Shown: piece by piece, positions 55,431 through 64,000 of the stretch
Numbering within the stretch: position 1 is the first letter of the stretch
How the letters are laid out: each line of letters begins with the position of its first letter
The notes under the pieces: generated by a model
Told to the model about the DNA's origin: nothing
Seen by the model: only the letters and a program-made list of their open reading frames with translations
Database searches by the model: none
Assembly (NCBI GenBank): GCA_002689925.1
Contig: NZIO01000010.1
Span: forward strand, 1-64,000
Direction of reading: 5' to 3'
Length of the DNA: 64,000 bases
Source of the DNA: Candidatus Pelagibacter sp.
GTDB taxonomy: Bacteria; Pseudomonadota; Alphaproteobacteria; Pelagibacterales; Pelagibacteraceae
Program-made: the position numbers and the translations under genes

Positions 55431-56018
55431 TTAGATGTAAAAACCTATTATGCACACTACAATAAGCATGGACATAGCATAATTAAAGTTTTTTATAAAA
55501 TTATCATTTGTCGCAAATTTTCTTAAAAATTTCCCAAAAAAAGTCCAGCAAGTAATGCTTAAAAAGGCTGTAAAAGAACAAACTATAATCACCATTATAG
55601 AGCTATTTAAATAATTATCATCTCTAACAAATTTAGAAATCAAAGTGATTGCAGCCATTACACCTTTGGGGTTAATAAACTGAAATAAAAAAGTATCAAA
55701 AAATTTTACTGGGTTGATATTTTTTGAATTAGATAGATTGACCGAAAATGAAATTTTATATGCTAAATATAATAAAAAAAAAGTTCCAAGAATTCTAATA
55801 ATTTCTTGGATAATTGGATAATTTTTAAACGCTGATATCAATATAAAATTAATAAGAATAACAAGGACTGTGTAACCAATTCCTACACCCATAATTAAAG
55901 GAATGGTTTTTCTTATTCCAAAATTAAAGCCAGAAAAAGAAGCAACTGCATTATTTGGCCCTGGAGTAAAACCTAAAGAAAATGAAATTCCAATCAATAA
56001 TAGTAATTCAGGATGCAT
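55431..56018 (-). CDS. LysE/RhtB-family translocator
   Basis: Amino-acid exporter-type membrane protein of 195 residues and about six helices. The N-terminus GFTPGPNNAVASFSGFNFG is the LysE-family signature, and FQFINPKGVMAAITLI near 110 is also conserved. Substrate unknown. It lies between csaA (upstream, 8 bases) and acnA (downstream, 4 bases) on the same strand. Confidence 0.88.
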   Translation of the reverse strand: MHPELLLLIGISFSLGFTPGPNNAVASFSGFNFGIRKTIPLIMGVGIGYTVLVILINFILISAFKNYPIIQEIIRILGTFFLLYLAYKISFSVNLSNSKNINPVKFFDTFLFQFINPKGVMAAITLISKFVRDDNYLNSSIMVIIVCSFTAFLSITCWTFFGKFLRKFATNDNFIKNFNYAMSMLIVVCIIGFYI

Positions 56019-56026
56019 AAAATAAT

Positions 56027-56368
56027 TTAAGCAACAGGAAGACCATTTTCAGATTCTTGAGATGGATGAACTAAAATGACTTTACCTTCCTTATCTATTG
56101 ATCCCAAAATAAGAACTTGAGAAATAATACCTGCTATATTTTTTTCTGGAAAATTACATATTGCAATTATTTGTTTTCCTTTTAATTTTTCTTCATTATA
56201 ATAATGGGTAATTTGAGCAGAAGATTGCTTAACTCCAATTTTATTTCCAAAATCTACTTTTACTACCAAAGATGGTTTTCTTGCTTTTTCGTTTTTTTCA
56301 ACAGAAATTACTGTTCCAACTCTAATATCTATTTTATCAAAATCGTCATACGATATTTGTTCTTTCAT
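56027..56368 (-). CDS. csaA: CsaA-like tRNA-binding-domain protein
   Basis: Single OB-fold tRNA-binding domain of 113 residues, as in the CsaA chaperone and the C-terminus of MetG. Seen are DFDKIDIRVGTV near the start, KPSLVVKVDFG near 32, GVKQSSAQITHYY and ICNFPEKNIAG, and the terminal PSQESENGLPVA. I use the ATG at 56368; the frame is open to a GTG at 56404 that would overlap argE. Its start is 26 bases from the divergent argE start. Confidence 0.9.
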   Translation of the reverse strand: MKEQISYDDFDKIDIRVGTVISVEKNEKARKPSLVVKVDFGNKIGVKQSSAQITHYYNEEKLKGKQIIAICNFPEKNIAGIISQVLILGSIDKEGKVILVHPSQESENGLPVA

Positions 56369-56394
56369 ACAATTAATATATAATAAAATTAAAT

Positions 56395-57585
56395 ATGAAC
56401 ACACAAAAAAAAACCGATGAAAATATCAAAAATTTTTTATCTATTTTGTCAGATTTAATTGCTTTTAAAACAATATCAGGCCAAGATAATAATGATTTAA
56501 TAAATTACTGTGATAATTTATTAAAAAAATTAGGAGCAGATTCTTTTAGAACGTTTGATGATGAAAAAAAAAGAGTTAATCTTTTTGCTACTTTAAAATC
56601 AAAAAAAAGTAGTGACAAAATGCCAATTATTCTATCAGGTCATACAGATGTTGTTCCTGTATCAAGAAATTGGAAAACTGACCCTTTTAAAGCAACACTA
56701 AAAGATAATAAGATTTTTGGTCGTGGTTCTTGTGATATGAAAGGTTTTATTGCATGCGCATTGACATATGCGCCAATTTTTTCTAAATCAAATCTTGATC
56801 GAGATATTCATTTTTCATTTACTTTTGATGAAGAAACTGCCTGTCAAGGTGCTCCATTATTAATTAAGGAATTAGATAAAAGAAAAATTAATAAAGGTAT
56901 TTGTATAGTTGGGGAACCTACAAACATGAAAATTATTGATGCACACAAAGGTTGTTATGAATATACAACTCACTTTGAAGGTTTGGCTGGACATGGTTCT
57001 GCTCCAAGCAAAGGAGTAAATGCGATAGAATACGCTGTTAGTTATGTAAATAAACTTTTGGAATTAAGAGAAAAATTAAAAATGAAAGTTAAAAATGATT
57101 CTGTTTTTAATCCACCTTATACTACACTTCAAATTGGTAAAATTAGTGGTGGAATTGCTAGAAATGTAATTGCTGATAAGTGTAAAGTTGATTGGGAGCT
57201 ACGTCCAGTAGTTAAAGAAGATGGTGTTTTTGTTAATAATGAAATGAATAATTTTGTTAATGAAAAGTTGTTACCAGAAATGAAGAAAGTATATGTGAAC
57301 TCATCAATAAAAAAAGAGGTCATAGGTGAAATTATTGGCTTTGATAGATTGAATAAATCAGATGCTTGTGAATTAATTTCTAAAATTACAGGTGATAACT
57401 CGAGAGATGTTGTTTCATTTGGAACTGAAGCTGGTTTATTTCAAGAAATTGGCATAAGTACAGTTGTTTGTGGCCCTGGTTCAATCGAACAAGCACATAA
57501 AGATGATGAATTTGTATCTATAGATGAAATAAAAAAGTGTTTTAAAATGCTAGAAGGTATAAAAAATAATTCTATAAGAAATTAA
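56395..57585 (+). CDS. argE: Acetylornithine deacetylase
   Basis: M20-family zinc hydrolase that frees ornithine from N-acetylornithine in arginine synthesis; 396 residues. Metal and catalytic residues are in LSGHTDVVPVS near 80, GRGSCDMKGFIAC near 111, DEETACQGAP with the catalytic Glu pair near 145, GEPTNMKIIDAHKG near 173 and the C-terminal GPGSIEQAHKDDEFV. Length fits the ArgE branch, but closely related M20 enzymes cannot be fully excluded. The stop shares TTAA (57582-57585) with the convergent aldehyde dehydrogenase gene. Confidence 0.9.
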   Translation: MNTQKKTDENIKNFLSILSDLIAFKTISGQDNNDLINYCDNLLKKLGADSFRTFDDEKKRVNLFATLKSKKSSDKMPIILSGHTDVVPVSRNWKTDPFKATLKDNKIFGRGSCDMKGFIACALTYAPIFSKSNLDRDIHFSFTFDEETACQGAPLLIKELDKRKINKGICIVGEPTNMKIIDAHKGCYEYTTHFEGLAGHGSAPSKGVNAIEYAVSYVNKLLELREKLKMKVKNDSVFNPPYTTLQIGKISGGIARNVIADKCKVDWELRPVVKEDGVFVNNEMNNFVNEKLLPEMKKVYVNSSIKKEVIGEIIGFDRLNKSDACELISKITGDNSRDVVSFGTEAGLFQEIGISTVVCGPGSIEQAHKDDEFVSIDEIKKCFKMLEGIKNNSIRN

Positions 57586-59021
57586 TTTTCATTCCATCCG
57601 CCTACTGATTTTACCTCTAAAAACTCTTCTAAACCTTTAGCTCCTGCTTCACGACCGATACCTGAGTGTTTAAAACCACCAAATGGGGCATCAACTGCAA
57701 TACCTGCTCCATTTACATCAACCATTCCAGATCTTAATTTTCTAGCAACTCTGTTTGCTTTATCTTGGTCTTGAGTTTGAATATAATTCGTTAAACCATA
57801 AGGGGTATCATTAGCTATTTTAATTGCTTCTTCTTCAGTTTCAAAAGGAATAATTGAAAGTACTGGTCCAAATATTTCTGTTCTTGCTATTTGCATTTGA
57901 TTATTAACATTAGCAAATGCTGTTGGTTTAACAAAATATCCTTTTTCAATACCACTAGGCTTACCAATGCCTCCGGCAACTAATTTTGCTCCTTCATCAA
58001 TACCCTTTTGAATTAAAGTTTGAATTTTATCATATTGAGTTTCAGAAATAACTGGACCAATATGATCACCTTCTTTTTTAGGGTCATCTACTTTTAAATC
58101 ATTTGCAAATTTTTTAACTCTTTCAACTGCTTCATGGTATATTGATTTTTCTACAAGCATTCTAGTGGGAGCATTACATGATTGGCCAGAATTTCTAAAA
58201 CACCTTAAAGCTCCTCTTTCAACAGCTTCTGGATCAGCGTCTTTAAAAATAATATTGGCTCCTTTACCACCGAGTTCAAGACTTATACGTTTAAAATCTT
58301 TTGCTGCGTTCTGAGAAATTAAAGCACCTGCTCTTGTAGATCCAGTAAAAGAAATCATATTTACATCAGGGTGACTTGTTAATGCATCTCCAGTAACAGC
58401 TCCATCACCATTAATTAAATTAAAAACTCCATTTGGAAATTTAGCTTCATCAATTATTTCAGCAAGTATCATTGATGATAATGGTGCTAATTCTGATGGT
58501 TTCAAAATCATTGTACAGCCAGAAGCCAAAGCTGGAATTACTTTTAGACAAACCTGATTCATTGGCCAGTTCCAAGGAGTGATTAAAGCACAAACACCTT
58601 TTGGTTCATAAATAATTTTTTGATTTTTTGCATGGTCACCAAGAATCTTTTCAAATTTAAATTCCTTTAAATACTTGATAAATGATTTTATATGACTAGC
58701 TCCTGTGCCAGCTTGCAATTGAGTTGAGAAATCTTTTGGAGCACCCATTTCTAAAGTTATAGCTTCAGCGATATCTGCCCATCTTTTTTTATAAAGCTCA
58801 TAAAGTGATTCTAATAATTTTACTTTTTCATCTTTTGATGTGAATGCCCAATTTTCTAAAGCTTTTTTAGCTGAAGAGACTGCTAAATTTACGTCATCTA
58901 AACCGCCAAGTGATATAACAGCACAATCTTTTTCTGTTGCAGGATCTATTACTTTTATTTCATTAGGTTTTATTGGGTTAATCCATTTACCATTAATATA
59001 AAATTTTTTTTTATCAATCAT
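57582..59021 (-). CDS. NAD(P)-dependent aldehyde dehydrogenase
   Basis: Oxidises an aldehyde to its acid; 479 residues of the ALDH superfamily. ITPWNWPMNQ near 148, FTGSTRAG near 228, the general base Glu in LELGGKGANI near 250 and the catalytic Cys in NSGQSCNAPTRML near 284 are all present, as is EIFGPVLSIIPF near 384. The substrate is not evident. The sequence resembles broad-specificity or betaine/aminoaldehyde-type members. It may be the last gene of the operon that starts with the ABC permeases, but 82 bases separate it from the DUF3726 gene. Confidence 0.92.
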   Translation of the reverse strand: MIDKKKFYINGKWINPIKPNEIKVIDPATEKDCAVISLGGLDDVNLAVSSAKKALENWAFTSKDEKVKLLESLYELYKKRWADIAEAITLEMGAPKDFSTQLQAGTGASHIKSFIKYLKEFKFEKILGDHAKNQKIIYEPKGVCALITPWNWPMNQVCLKVIPALASGCTMILKPSELAPLSSMILAEIIDEAKFPNGVFNLINGDGAVTGDALTSHPDVNMISFTGSTRAGALISQNAAKDFKRISLELGGKGANIIFKDADPEAVERGALRCFRNSGQSCNAPTRMLVEKSIYHEAVERVKKFANDLKVDDPKKEGDHIGPVISETQYDKIQTLIQKGIDEGAKLVAGGIGKPSGIEKGYFVKPTAFANVNNQMQIARTEIFGPVLSIIPFETEEEAIKIANDTPYGLTNYIQTQDQDKANRVARKLRSGMVDVNGAGIAVDAPFGGFKHSGIGREAGAKGLEEFLEVKSVGGWNEN

Positions 59022-59103: not shown

Positions 59104-59709
59104 TTAATCATTATCAGTGGTTCCTGCTCCAGCACCTTTTGATTTTGAACTTTCAGATTCATCTACAAAAGTTTCAACTGAAAGTTTGTAAAGTTCTTTC
59201 CAGTCTTTTTCAGAAAAAGAATTTGTATTTTTTATAAATTCTATATTAATTTTTTTAGTTGAATAATTAATAATTTTTTTTTTATTACTTATAAAAATAG
59301 ATTTATTAAAATTAGTGAGAAAAATTATATTATCAAATTCAACTTTTATTTTTTTTCCTAATATTTCAGATGCCTTGCTTATAAAAGGTATTAATAATAA
59401 GGGGAATTTAATATTATAAACTTTAATTTTTTTTAATTTATCTAATTCCATACATCTGTCTAGAAAAGTTACCCCATAATAAATAGGGCAAATTTCTTTT
59501 TCTTTATTTATTTTGTTAATTTTTTTGATTTTTTTAGGATGTTTTTTTTTAATCTTTTTTAAATATAGATTTAGATTATTAAGTCCTGGTAATCCAAATA
59601 ATTCTAAAGTTCTAATTGCCTTACCTACTTCTTCAGAAATTCCCCAAGAAAATCCTGCAGCTTTACTTGCTCTTTTTGATGTAACATCAATTTCACTCAA
59701 AGATCGCAT
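59104..59709 (-). CDS. DUF3726 family protein
   Basis: Uncharacterised protein of 201 residues. The N-terminus MRSLSEIDVTSKRASKAAGF followed by SWGISEEVGKAIRTLELFG is the family pattern. The middle is lysine/isoleucine rich and divergent, and the chain ends in a Gly/Ala tail GAGAGTTDND, which looks specific and may be functional. No signal peptide or membrane segment. I use the ATG at 59709, which lies next to the stop of the 556-residue gene; the open frame reaches a TTG at 59736. Confidence 0.75.
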   Translation of the reverse strand: MRSLSEIDVTSKRASKAAGFSWGISEEVGKAIRTLELFGLPGLNNLNLYLKKIKKKHPKKIKKINKINKEKEICPIYYGVTFLDRCMELDKLKKIKVYNIKFPLLLIPFISKASEILGKKIKVEFDNIIFLTNFNKSIFISNKKKIINYSTKKINIEFIKNTNSFSEKDWKELYKLSVETFVDESESSKSKGAGAGTTDND

Positions 59710-59711
59710 GA

Positions 59712-61382
59712 TTAATTTAAAAGGCCGTAAACCCAAGTATCATTAGAATTTTTCATTTCATTTGATAATGGAGCTCCTTGATACATGTTAATTCTAAGCC
59801 ATTTATTAGATCTAGGATCAAATTTAGCAGCTCCGAAAAAAGAAAGTTTCAACCTAAGCATATCAATTGGTACCAAAGAAACATCAATGGTATTGTCTTG
59901 GATTTCAGAATAGGGAAATTTTTCAACTATAAAAGCTCTTCTCACTACATGTCTAACATCATCATTTTCAGATAAAAATTGAGCAATTGTTTTTTGTTGT
60001 TTTGTTTTAATTACTTTTTGATAGAGTTTTTTAATATCTCTAGCTATTGCTAAAGGTTGTTCTAACTCTGCTCCATTTTCTTTAAATCTATTAGCAATCC
60101 TTGGTTCTTCTTTATTTTTAGAAATGAACCAAAAATTACAATTACTATCTTTTTTTTCAAAATCAATTTCTAATATAGATTTATAACTATTTTCTAAAAT
60201 TAATTTAAGATTGGAAACTTTTTTATGAGCAGGAATTGTAAAATATTTATCTTCATCTGCACTCATATTATGAACCAAAGGATTAATAATTTCATCATAA
60301 GGCTCCATCATCATAGAAATAATATATTCTAAACATTCATCTCCAAGATTTTCTTTTGACCATAAATAAATTACATTCCAAAGATATTTAGTTTTAATAA
60401 AAGTTTGGTTTTTTAAATATTCTTCAAATTTAATCAAATCTACTTTCAATGAATTAATCTTATTTTTTTGATATTCACTTTCTGTTGACCAATAACTAAT
60501 ATTAGTTTTTGATTTTGCTAGACAGTCTTTAAAAACTTGAAGTTTTTTAAAATCAACACTTTCTATTGATCTAATATCTTTTAATGCTTTTTCTCTAGAA
60601 TAAATCCAGCTATGTAGAAGTGTTGGATGATTTACAATAAAAGGAGCCATACCTAAGCCCGTAGAATTACCTATCCCTAAATTTCTTGCAATATCACTAT
60701 CTAATTTAACTGCATTTTTAGGATTCTTAAATTTTGCTATATGGTTTACTTGATCAAAAGTAAATTGCCTAACTAAATAAACTAGCATCATTTCTAGTCG
60801 AAATGGTCCATTTATTTCTTTTCTATCTTTAATTCTAAAACGATCTGCTAAACCAAATTTACCTGAACCATAAACTGCTGTTGTTCTATATAAATAGCCT
60901 ACTTTATTCAACAATTCTTTATTTGGTTGTTTCCCTGCGCTTAAAGAATCTACAACATGTTTAAATATTCTTACTGATTTATTTGCTCTAGATAAAGTAA
61001 GTTCTTTATAAGATAAACGGCCTACCTCTTGTTTAGGAACATTTTTCTTTAAACGAATTAAATCTTTTTTACTTGGAATACCATCATGCAAAACAAATGC
61101 TGCATCCCATTTAGTTGCTATAACTCTATCTGAACGATCATTGGAATCTATATGTTGTGCAAAACAAATTAATGAATAAGTTCTTTTATTTTTACTAAAA
61201 GAATAAACGGCTGTTCCATAACCATGTTTATTAAGATTGAATAAATTTCTTTTATATTTCCAATCTTTAAATTCTCTAATAAAACTCCTAAGAAAAGAAA
61301 GTTTAGATTGATGAAAAGATCCAAGTTTAGATAATTTCATAACTTCATTTGGGTCTCTAAATTTTATATCTATTTTTTTCAA
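59712..61382 (-). CDS. Unrecognised conserved protein in the M19/ABC operon
   Basis: 556-residue protein that I do not recognise. It has no signal peptide or membrane helix and no obvious nucleotide-binding motif. Notable stretches are KLGSFHQSKLSFLRSFIREF near the N-terminus, RLSYKELTLSRANKSVR near 121, GKFGLADRF near 174, GNSTGLGMAPFIVNHPTLLH near 238 and DDVRHVVRRAFIVEKFPYSE near 485. The start is a TTG overlapping the M19 stop (TTGA) with GAGG 9 bases before it; an ATG at 61340 is the alternative. Tight coupling to the M19-like and DUF3726 genes suggests a shared task. Confidence 0.7.
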   Translation of the reverse strand: MKKIDIKFRDPNEVMKLSKLGSFHQSKLSFLRSFIREFKDWKYKRNLFNLNKHGYGTAVYSFSKNKRTYSLICFAQHIDSNDRSDRVIATKWDAAFVLHDGIPSKKDLIRLKKNVPKQEVGRLSYKELTLSRANKSVRIFKHVVDSLSAGKQPNKELLNKVGYLYRTTAVYGSGKFGLADRFRIKDRKEINGPFRLEMMLVYLVRQFTFDQVNHIAKFKNPKNAVKLDSDIARNLGIGNSTGLGMAPFIVNHPTLLHSWIYSREKALKDIRSIESVDFKKLQVFKDCLAKSKTNISYWSTESEYQKNKINSLKVDLIKFEEYLKNQTFIKTKYLWNVIYLWSKENLGDECLEYIISMMMEPYDEIINPLVHNMSADEDKYFTIPAHKKVSNLKLILENSYKSILEIDFEKKDSNCNFWFISKNKEEPRIANRFKENGAELEQPLAIARDIKKLYQKVIKTKQQKTIAQFLSENDDVRHVVRRAFIVEKFPYSEIQDNTIDVSLVPIDMLRLKLSFFGAAKFDPRSNKWLRINMYQGAPLSNEMKNSNDTWVYGLLN

Positions 61383-62359
61383 GAATTTATACCTCGGTAA
61401 AAATTATACCAATTATTACCCAGTATGTCATTTACCTCAGCATTATTAAAGCCAGTTTTTTGTAAACCCATTTCTAAATTTTTGAAGCCTCTGGCATCCC
61501 TAAACCACTCAGGTTGTTTTGGAAAATTTGCGTTATTAGCACTTCCTTCTCCATAATCTTTTGTTTTCGTCCATGTACCATTTCTCATCCAATCAACAAC
61601 ATTGTTAGAATGACCAATGCAAAGATCTGAACCAATACCTATATGTTTTACACCTATAAGTTCTGCTGTTTTTGCAGCCATCTCACAAAAACTTTCTAAT
61701 GTACAATTTGTTTTGTCTTTTAGATGATGAGGATAAAGCGATAATCCAATAACACCTCCTGATTCTGCTAAAGCTTTCAAAACATCGTTTGATTTATTTC
61801 TTTTAGCATCAAACCAAAAAGATGGGTTGGCGTGGGTAATTGCAATTGGTTTACGAGATATTTTAATTGCATCAAGTGTTGATTTTTCTGCAGAGTGAGA
61901 CATATCAACAACAATACCTAAGTTATTCATTTCTTTAATCACTTCCTTGCCCATTCTAGTAACTCCACTATCATTTTTTTCGTAACATCCTGTAGCTAAC
62001 AAAGATTGATTATTATAGGTAAGTTGCATAAATCTTATTCCCATTTTGTAAACCTCTTCAACTAAACCAATATCATCTTCTATTGGAGAGCAATTTTGAA
62101 AGCCAAAAAAAACTGCTGTTTTTTTTTCTTTATGTGCTTTTTCTATGTCTTTAAATGTTTTTCCCTGAAAAATTAAATCTTTAAACTCTTTAAAATAATT
62201 TTCCCATTCATCAATATTTTTTTTGACTTCATCAAAATCTTCATGATAAGCAATTGTTACATGGATAGCATCTAATTTTGCTTCTTTATTAATCTTAAAT
62301 ATTTCTTTAGACCACTTGCAATATTGTAAATTATCTATTTTAAAGATGTTTGAATTCAT
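61379..62359 (-). CDS. M19 (renal dipeptidase-like) family protein, incomplete metal site
   Basis: TIM-barrel protein of 326 residues of the membrane-dipeptidase family. MSHSAEKS with H155, AITHANPS with H176 and GIGSDLCIG with D245 match conserved metal-site and active-site positions. The usual N-terminal HxD is replaced by DNLQYC (9-14), and the bridging Glu (normally in an I-E-G motif) aligns with Q88 in FFGFQNC. One of the two metal sites therefore seems lost. Either a different hydrolase activity or a binding role is possible. No signal peptide, so cytosolic. Translationally linked to the 556-residue gene. Confidence 0.82.
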   Translation of the reverse strand: MNSNIFKIDNLQYCKWSKEIFKINKEAKLDAIHVTIAYHEDFDEVKKNIDEWENYFKEFKDLIFQGKTFKDIEKAHKEKKTAVFFGFQNCSPIEDDIGLVEEVYKMGIRFMQLTYNNQSLLATGCYEKNDSGVTRMGKEVIKEMNNLGIVVDMSHSAEKSTLDAIKISRKPIAITHANPSFWFDAKRNKSNDVLKALAESGGVIGLSLYPHHLKDKTNCTLESFCEMAAKTAELIGVKHIGIGSDLCIGHSNNVVDWMRNGTWTKTKDYGEGSANNANFPKQPEWFRDARGFKNLEMGLQKTGFNNAEVNDILGNNWYNFYRGINS

Positions 62360-62445
62360 GTAATATTTATAGATGATTTGGTTATATATAGTAACTGCAT
62401 TGTGGATTGTTGGATCAGTATCAGATTAGTTTTAATCTGTTCCAT

Positions 62446-63330
62446 TTAATTTTGTAACTTAATACCACGTAATCGTTCTGATCTTCTTCTTAATAATTCA
62501 ACTGTTGTTAATAAAGCAATTGACAAAAATACTAAGCAAGTTGCCATGCACAAAATAACAGGGCTAGTTTCTTGTCTTAAACCTGCCCACATTTGTTTAG
62601 GTATAGTAATTTGCTCAACACTTCCAACAAACATAACTACAACTACTTCATCAAATGATGTTATGAAGGCAAATAAACCACCAGAAATAACACCAGGTAA
62701 AATCAAGGGCATGATAACTTTAAAGAAAGTTCTAATTGTATTTGCACCTAAGCTTTGAGAAGCTCTAATTAAATTAGTATCAAAACCTGTTAAAGTTGCT
62801 GTAACTGTAATTACGACAAAAGGTGTTCCTAGTGCGGTGTGTGCAAGAATTAATCCTAAATAGGTATGAGTTAAACCAATCTTTGAGTAAAAGAAAAACA
62901 TCCCTGCTGAAGTAATAATTAATGGAACAATCATCGGTGAAATTAAAATCGCCATTAAAACACCTTTAAAAGGCATATTTGGTCTACTCAGACCTAAGGC
63001 TGCCACAGTACCTAAGGCTGTTGCTAGGAATGTAGCACTTATCCCAATTATAAAACTATTTCTAGTTCCTAGCATCCATTTATTAGAAACAACTGTTGTG
63101 TCTCCTGGGCTACTAATACCAACCATTTGTCTATACCATCTAAGGGACCAAGCCTCCGATTCAAAATTCATAAATTCCCTAGTAAACTCAAAGAATGGTG
63201 AAGAGCTGAAAGATAAAGGAAGAATTATAAAAATAGGTGCAATTAAAAAGAAAAAAACTAACCCACAATAAGTTAAGTAAGTATAATAACTTACTTTTTG
63301 CCCTGTTGATGCATACGCTGGTAAAGCCAT
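62446..63330 (-). CDS. ABC transporter permease, spermidine/putrescine (PotC) type
   Basis: Inner-membrane permease of 294 residues with six helices and the BPD_transp_1 fold. The EAA-type coupling loop is RASQSLGANTIRTFFKVIMP near 190, and GVISGGLFAFITSFDEVVVV near 214 is typical of PotC/PotI. It lies 2 bases after its partner permease. The cognate ATPase and binding protein, not in this window, should lie upstream beyond 64000. The substrate could be a polyamine or a related compound. Confidence 0.9.
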   Translation of the reverse strand: MALPAYASTGQKVSYYTYLTYCGLVFFFLIAPIFIILPLSFSSSPFFEFTREFMNFESEAWSLRWYRQMVGISSPGDTTVVSNKWMLGTRNSFIIGISATFLATALGTVAALGLSRPNMPFKGVLMAILISPMIVPLIITSAGMFFFYSKIGLTHTYLGLILAHTALGTPFVVITVTATLTGFDTNLIRASQSLGANTIRTFFKVIMPLILPGVISGGLFAFITSFDEVVVVMFVGSVEQITIPKQMWAGLRQETSPVILCMATCLVFLSIALLTTVELLRRRSERLRGIKLQN

Positions 63331-63332
63331 AA

Positions 63333-64000
63333 TTATCCTAATTTAATATTTTCTATTCCAACAATTTTATTATACACCCAATATAAAATTGTCATTAAAG
63401 CTAACAATATAGCTCCTAATGCTGCACATAAACCCCAATTAAGAGTTGTTTTCAAATGGTATGCGATCCAATTACCTATCATTTGGCCATCCTTACCACC
63501 TACTAATTCAGGAGTTATATAATATCCGATTGCAAGTATAAATACGAGCATACATCCTGCGCTGATACCTGGTACTGAATTTGGCATATAAATTTTATAA
63601 AAAGCATGAAGAGGTGAAGCTCCAAGATTTAAAGCTGCTCTCATGTAGTTTGGTGAAATTGTTTTCATTACACTATATAATGGTAAAACCATAAACGGTA
63701 ACAAGATTTGTGTCATAACAATTATAGTTGCTGTTTCATTGTACATAAGTTTGAAACGATTCTCATCGGCTATGATATGAGCCATAACTAATAAATTATT
63801 AAAAACACCTTTTTGTTGTAACATAACCATCCAAGCTACTGTTCTAACAAGTAAAGAAGTCCAAAAAGGTAAAAGAACACATATCATTAAAAGATTGCTG
63901 TATTTTAAAGGCAACGTTGCTAATAAATAAGAAATTGGATAGCCCAAAATCAAACAGAAAAACATAACTAAAATACTGACTTTAAAAGTTTTAAACCATG
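63333..64000 (-). CDS. ABC transporter permease, PotB type, partial
   Basis: Partner permease of the same transporter; the frame is open to the right edge, so the N-terminus is missing. An ATG at 63965 is internal: in-frame codons before it (WFKTFKVSILV) continue the hydrophobic permease sequence. The EAA loop is MRAALNLGASPLHAFYKIYM near the middle, and LLPFWTSLLVRTVAWMVML and YYITPELVGGKDGQMIGNWI are typical of PotB/PotH. Confidence 0.9.
   Translation of the reverse strand, partial: WFKTFKVSILVMFFCLILGYPISYLLATLPLKYSNLLMICVLLPFWTSLLVRTVAWMVMLQQKGVFNNLLVMAHIIADENRFKLMYNETATIIVMTQILLPFMVLPLYSVMKTISPNYMRAALNLGASPLHAFYKIYMPNSVPGISAGCMLVFILAIGYYITPELVGGKDGQMIGNWIAYHLKTTLNWGLCAALGAILLALMTILYWVYNKIVGIENIKLG

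Follow-up and report, generated by a model that had tools for sequence, protein, structure and literature searches.

Two described systems come closest to the locus treated here, a trio of adjoining genes that code for an M19-like protein, for a protein of 556 residues that we call P556 and for a DUF3726 protein, at the end of a stretch of 64,000 nucleotides of a Candidatus Pelagibacter sp., placed by its named relatives in the abundant marine group SAR11 (contig NZIO01000010.1, positions 1 to 64,000; hereafter the window). The first is the catabolism of homarine (N-methylpicolinate), a compound that R. pomeroyi draws down rapidly (PMC12817926), and in which N-methylglutamate dehydrogenase (Mgd) takes part according to a further report (PMC13390433, citing Nat Microbiol 2026). 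The second is the N-methylglutamate (gmaS-mgs-mgd) pathway. The operon that surrounds the trio in other bacteria resembles both: it is often linked to Mgd, the enzyme named for homarine in that report, and it shares with the N-methylglutamate pathway SoxBDAG proteins of the Mgd clade, a GlxA/AraC-type regulator and, in one P556 cluster, purU and folD. It also differs from both: the trio stands alone in most SAR11 loci of our set, with PotBC-type permease genes next to it in the window; neither gmaS nor mgs was found in the fetched P556 clusters, and N-methylglutamate would be derived from a heterocycle instead of methylamine. A homarine operon, homABCDER, was reportedly described in 2026 in Rhodobacterales and SAR11; five enzyme genes and a LysR gene, as in the operon around the trio, would fit this name.

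On balance, we think it probable that the trio forms the centre of a pathway by which an imported N-methylated zwitterion, with homarine as the most likely candidate, is broken down to N-methylglutamate. Judged from gene content, the operon context, with betaine-class transporters, an aldehyde dehydrogenase (ALDH), a type-2 malate/lactate dehydrogenase (Ldh2) and often Mgd, points to an N-methylated betaine that is degraded by way of N-methylglutamate. An earlier note on the window had proposed the locus as its best candidate for an undescribed system; we doubt this, given that the operon published for homarine in 2026 may be the same one. Probably the pathway is known, and the new content lies at the enzyme level, in the tail and fold of DUF3726, in the site of the M19-like protein and in P556.

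Conservation of the trio

The M19-like, P556 and DUF3726 genes form an inseparable and widespread conserved module, whose linkage is far above chance. When all fetched loci are considered, a DUF3726-like gene lies directly downstream of P556 in 123 of the 124 testable ones, and an M19-like gene was found within about 5 kb of P556 in 47 of 51 loci. P556 is present in 30 of 61 related genomes; all 31 loci found in GTDB genomes have P556 followed by DUF3726, with variable flanking genes, and in SAR11 loci the M19-like gene precedes P556 wherever the contig extends far enough. In an even draw of 385 alphaproteobacterial genomes, P556 occurs in 53 and DUF3726 in 43, and comparison of the two lists shows that every DUF3726-positive genome is also P556-positive (43/43). 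A proteobacterium-wide sample yielded P556 in 29 of 398 genomes, some of them outside Alphaproteobacteria, and the complete trio is present in SAR11 and in Rhodobacterales. These co-occurrences bear out the view of the earlier note that the last three genes are a real module, partly of unknown function, and the gene neighbourhoods exclude that they come together only rarely elsewhere.

More distant copies were also found. On a plasmid of the haloarchaeon Natrinema versiforme (L151:12091-14621), a divergent P556 is accompanied by a 317-amino-acid, Ldh2-like homologue of DUF3726, with ALDH and BCCT genes nearby; no M19-like gene was found near P556 at this locus. This homologue has an intermediate position between the Ldh2 and DUF3726 families. 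Another subfamily of P556, which shares about 22-26% identity with the copy in the window, occurs on Sinorhizobium, Neorhizobium and Alloyangia plasmids (L149, L177, L178) and in Variovorax (L153). These loci have IclR and M19-like genes, and the three plasmid loci add a Pot-type ABC transporter and RidA, GabT and/or succinate-semialdehyde dehydrogenase (SSADH), the order being IclR - P556 - DUF - M19 - Pot-type ABC - RidA, GabT, SSADH. This organization suggests that the divergent subfamily performs the same first steps on a different substrate.

The presence of GabT, SSADH and RidA downstream of the divergent copies implies that different copies of the module can act on different substrates, and is one argument for a variant of our proposal in which the same module logic is applied to a different N-methylated betaine or to another heterocycle (trigonelline, proline betaine, hydroxyproline betaine or some unknown osmolyte), with N-methylglutamate or some other N-methyl amino acid as the end product. 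The transporters, which range over BCCT, glycine-betaine ABC and Pot-type systems as if for several betaines, and the mandelate-racemase-type gene and second Ldh gene near the Shinella cluster, are in line with this variant. We nevertheless hold it to be rather unlikely, as the Mgd route is reported specifically for homarine (PMC13390433), and as plain demethylation of proline betaine would require neither a semialdehyde dehydrogenase nor Mgd.

Properties of the three proteins

The DUF3726 protein matches its Pfam family (PF12525) with 66.6 bits, for a cut-off of 22.1. The nearest PDB fold to its AlphaFold2 model (predicted local distance difference test score, pLDDT, 87) is that of the type-2 malate/lactate dehydrogenases (Ldh_2, PF02615): the top 14 fold matches are all Ldh_2 enzymes, the best with an E-value of 0.011 and a probability of 1.00. 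The two families are also matched by hhalign, with a probability of 75%, and the haloarchaeal homologue matches Ldh_2 at 4.8e-9. DUF3726 differs from these enzymes in its size (about 200 amino acids against 330), in the loss of the Ser-His-Gly motif, no conserved His being found at that place in the DUF3726 alignments, and in the presence of an extra C-terminal tail, in which A192, G193, A194, G195, D198, N199 and D200 are invariant (alignments A2 and A4); the AGAG..DND pattern is present in most loci of the main subfamily. According to the model, DUF3726 is a shrunken, degenerate Ldh2-fold protein with an added C-terminal tail, and we propose that it is the small partner subunit of P556. The idea that the tail is an attachment site, of the carrier-protein or peptide-scaffold kind, was raised because the tail is invariant; given the Ldh2 fold match, it is less likely than a subunit tail reaching its partner.

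P556 belongs to no Pfam or NCBIfam family, whether searched alone or across 17 diverse members, and has no credible sequence match in the PDB. Its AlphaFold2 model is of moderate confidence (pLDDT 72.9, predicted template modelling score 0.78); the PDB fold search gave nothing better than an E-value of 0.6 and the viral fold search was empty. Kinase-like folds, which appeared as weak matches with a probability of 0.25 or less, were rejected. Neither these family, sequence and fold searches nor the structure prediction that the earlier note had suggested connects P556 with a known enzyme. Across the range from SAR11 to Natrinema, the invariant residues include R86, W92, D93, R132, N134, R138, R166, R205, D210, N239, H252, E264, E352, E426, R428, R477 and R482. 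Because several invariant stretches fall in low-confidence loops of the model, it is plausible that P556 lacks a partner there, and the empty fold search carries less weight. We propose that P556 is a new family and the candidate catalytic partner of DUF3726. A bolder and tentative idea is that the two proteins define a new two-subunit class, with a fold not in the PDB, which would dearomatise or open N-methylpyridinium carboxylates without a recognisable oxygenase, the DUF3726 tail lying in the P556 active site.

The M19-like protein has the M19 Pfam domain, as do renal dipeptidase, GliJ and the amidohydrolase 2i5g, its closest solved chain, and it lacks the canonical dinuclear metal site. 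In contrast with canonical M19 enzymes, the bridging Glu is replaced by Gln in all 39 family members compared, a replacement also present in 2i5g, and the second-metal His by Ala in 33 of the 39. The N-terminal His-x-Asp region reads D-x-LQY, as judged from the N-termini and not from a full canonical alignment; we take the segment IDNLQYCKW to be at the position of the His-x-Asp metal-ligand motif of canonical M19. One metal-ligand His, the DLSH His, an Arg and the catalytic Asp are kept. Judged by sequence, most of the canonical dipeptidase metal ligands are lost, and we do not expect the protein to act as a canonical peptidase.

Gene neighbourhoods and the link to Mgd

In Rhodobacterales and rhizobia the gene order is LysR / ALDH - M19 - (BCCT) - P556 - DUF3726 - Ldh2, and outside the SAR11 relatives the usual transporter near the trio is a BCCT or a glycine-betaine ABC system. 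In the same two groups soxBDAG-type genes and the GlxA/AraC-type regulator often adjoin the operon. Genes annotated as heterotetrameric 'sarcosine oxidase' adjoin it in Phaeobacter, Aliiroseovarius, Roseateles XES5 (the cluster that also contains purU and folD), Shinella WSC3 and Ruegeria TM1040. Four of the five linked Sox loci, those of Phaeobacter, Aliiroseovarius, Roseateles XES5 and Shinella, were placed in a SoxA tree, where their copies group with Mgd copies with 99-100% support; the program flagged long branches and an uneven composition in this tree. The reference SoxA on the Mgd side are adjacent to gmaS-mgs in R. phaseoli and to dimethylamine monooxygenase (dmm) in P. aminovorans, and the trio-linked SoxA of the four genera are separate from the copies found beside glyA and serine ammonia-lyase, which belong to sarcosine oxidase. 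On the strength of this tree, sarcosine oxidase was rejected as the linked enzyme in Rhodobacterales and rhizobia.

This placement of the linked SoxA on the Mgd side also argues against an accessory role of the trio in the breakdown of glycine betaine, dimethylglycine and sarcosine. Such a role would agree with the surroundings of some SAR11 trios, where BHMT-like, DMGDH-like and sarcosine-oxidase-type genes and genes for glycine-betaine transporters lie alongside, with an amidohydrolase being the nearest solved M19 relative, and with the occurrence of a dipeptidase gene ahead of dgcAB in both Vibrio natriegens and P. aeruginosa (PMC12093977). We consider it improbable, all the more as the trio is not present at the genuine glyA-linked sarcosine oxidase loci of the fetched plasmid regions. 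To our knowledge, glycine betaine catabolism has been described without P556 or DUF3726.

Several SAR11 genomes (L027, L028, L182-L184) have two SoxBDAG-type classes, one of which lies about 3-9 kb from the trio and is annotated by family models only as sarcosine oxidase; the second groups with sarcosine oxidase in the SoxA tree. In the family of the window genome, each of the 13 genomes with the trio also has a soxA-type gene, which in the window genome itself (G000) is split, and 3 of the 24 trio-negative genomes have one above the curated cut-off, some of the others holding lower-scoring homologues. The soxA gene of G000 seems to be split over the ends of contigs C29 and C41 (L179, L180), where an assembly gap is possible, and this genome also holds a partial Ldh2.

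The PotBC permeases are lineage-specific neighbours outside the core module, because they adjoin the trio only in some close relatives (L003 and L023-L025), other bacteria mostly using BCCT or betaine-type ABC systems. Thus, of the earlier proposal that a nitrogen compound is taken up and processed at this locus, the tie of the trio to uptake and breakdown stands, but PotBC does not belong to the module. The aminoaldehyde step that the same proposal ascribed to the adjacent ALDH is unsupported, because the window ALDH is only 31% identical to the Phaeobacter operon ALDH; it is of another type and is not conserved with the trio. The closest family to the Phaeobacter enzyme is that of the ketoglutaric-semialdehyde dehydrogenases (475-478 bits, under the NCBIfam cut-offs; 474.7 against a cut-off of 770 in one case), but the enzyme is no equivalog of these. 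A system for polyamine-type uptake coupled to a peptidase and an aminoaldehyde step, as the adjacency of PotBC-like permeases and an ALDH in the window might suggest, was rejected as highly improbable: PotBC and the window ALDH are not kept alongside the trio elsewhere, the permeases score far below the spermidine/putrescine cut-offs of NCBIfam (134.5 bits against 326 for PotC, and 166.4 against 348 for PotB, scanned without its N-terminal part), and the M19-like protein is devoid of canonical metal ligands. Phaeobacter inhibens DSM 17395 has the cassette a second time (L174:11873-17313), next to a dimethylsulfoniopropionate demethylase gene and dmd-type genes.

A putative route from homarine to N-methylglutamate

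If homarine is the substrate, one ring carbon must go, because homarine holds one carbon more than N-methylglutamate; formate is the probable form in which it would leave, and P556/DUF3726 together with the M19-like protein are the candidates for ring attack and carbon removal. P556 and DUF3726 would make the first attack on the heterocycle as a single enzyme, and the M19-like protein may act on the opened intermediate, perhaps taking off the N-formyl carbon. ALDH would then oxidise the 5-semialdehyde and Ldh2 would reduce the N-methyl imine, the two together converting a five-carbon N-methyl imino semialdehyde to N-methylglutamate, which Mgd would cleave into glutamate and a one-carbon unit. 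SAR11 members would retain mainly the trio, and the other steps would come from elsewhere.

Several observations weigh against this route. The module contains no oxygenase, which leaves the ring-opening chemistry without explanation. Many SAR11 loci have neither the operon ALDH nor Ldh2 nearby, and the SAR11 SoxA near the trio forms a clade of its own, not clearly inside Mgd. The window genome (91% complete, 7% contaminated) yields only a class-A sarcosine-oxidase-like SoxA and no trio-type Mgd, and a copy in P. inhibens DSM 17395 has no betaine-type transporter or Mgd within 9 kb on either side.

Should the trio be the committed step in the breakdown of homarine or a related betaine, it would provide a metagenome marker for that flux of carbon and nitrogen, DUF3726 would be given a role, and P556 would be an enzyme family missing from the searched family libraries and from solved structures. 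Even if the operon is already published, a degenerate Ldh2 subunit with an invariant tail, an altered M19 site and a P556 protein whose fold could not be recognised open the chemistry to direct tests.

Gene layout in the window

The five minus-strand genes announced in the earlier note are all present where it placed them (Table 1), and so are the tight junctions it described among the last three. The M19-like and P556 genes meet in a TTGA, the TTG start of P556 overlapping the TGA stop of the M19-like gene, and DUF3726 starts 2 bases past the P556 stop. For DUF3726, the ATG at 59709 (in the sequence ..TTAAATTAATCATGCGATCT..) is preferred over a TTG at 59736 because relatives begin at the same site and because it adjoins the P556 stop.

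Table 1. Features of the trio and of its neighbours in the window
Feature	Position	Strand	Basis
PotB-like ABC permease	63333..64000, continuing to 64586 (417 amino acids, complete on contig)	-	Open reading frame, library match
PotC-type ABC permease	62446..63330	-	PF00528
M19-like protein, 326 amino acids	61379..62359	-	PF01244, E=6.7e-76
M19-like N-terminal motif IDNLQYCKW	62312..62338	-	Conserved across family N-termini
P556, 556 amino acids, new family	59712..61382	-	Without Pfam/NCBIfam family; invariant charged residues in bacteria and an archaeon
DUF3726 protein, 201 amino acids	59104..59709	-	PF12525, E=1.8e-18
DUF3726 C-terminal tail GAGAGTTDND	59107..59136	-	Family pattern AGAG..DND at the very end
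ALDH beside the trio	57582..59021		

The earlier note had looked to the sequence past 64,000 for the binding protein and ATPase genes of the transporter. Reading on completed potB, but the contig ends shortly beyond it, at 64782, and neither gene is readable in between; in L024 and L025, both close relatives, potB is immediately preceded by ATPase-like and binding-protein-like genes on its upstream side. Scans for promoter-like sites (21 for 30 expected) and terminator-like sites (2 for 1.5 expected) were uninformative. On the other side of the trio, beside the ALDH gene, the window has genes for an ArgE-like peptidase, a LysE-type exporter and a tRNA-binding-domain protein (55431-57585); L023 and L025 have these genes close to their trio as well.

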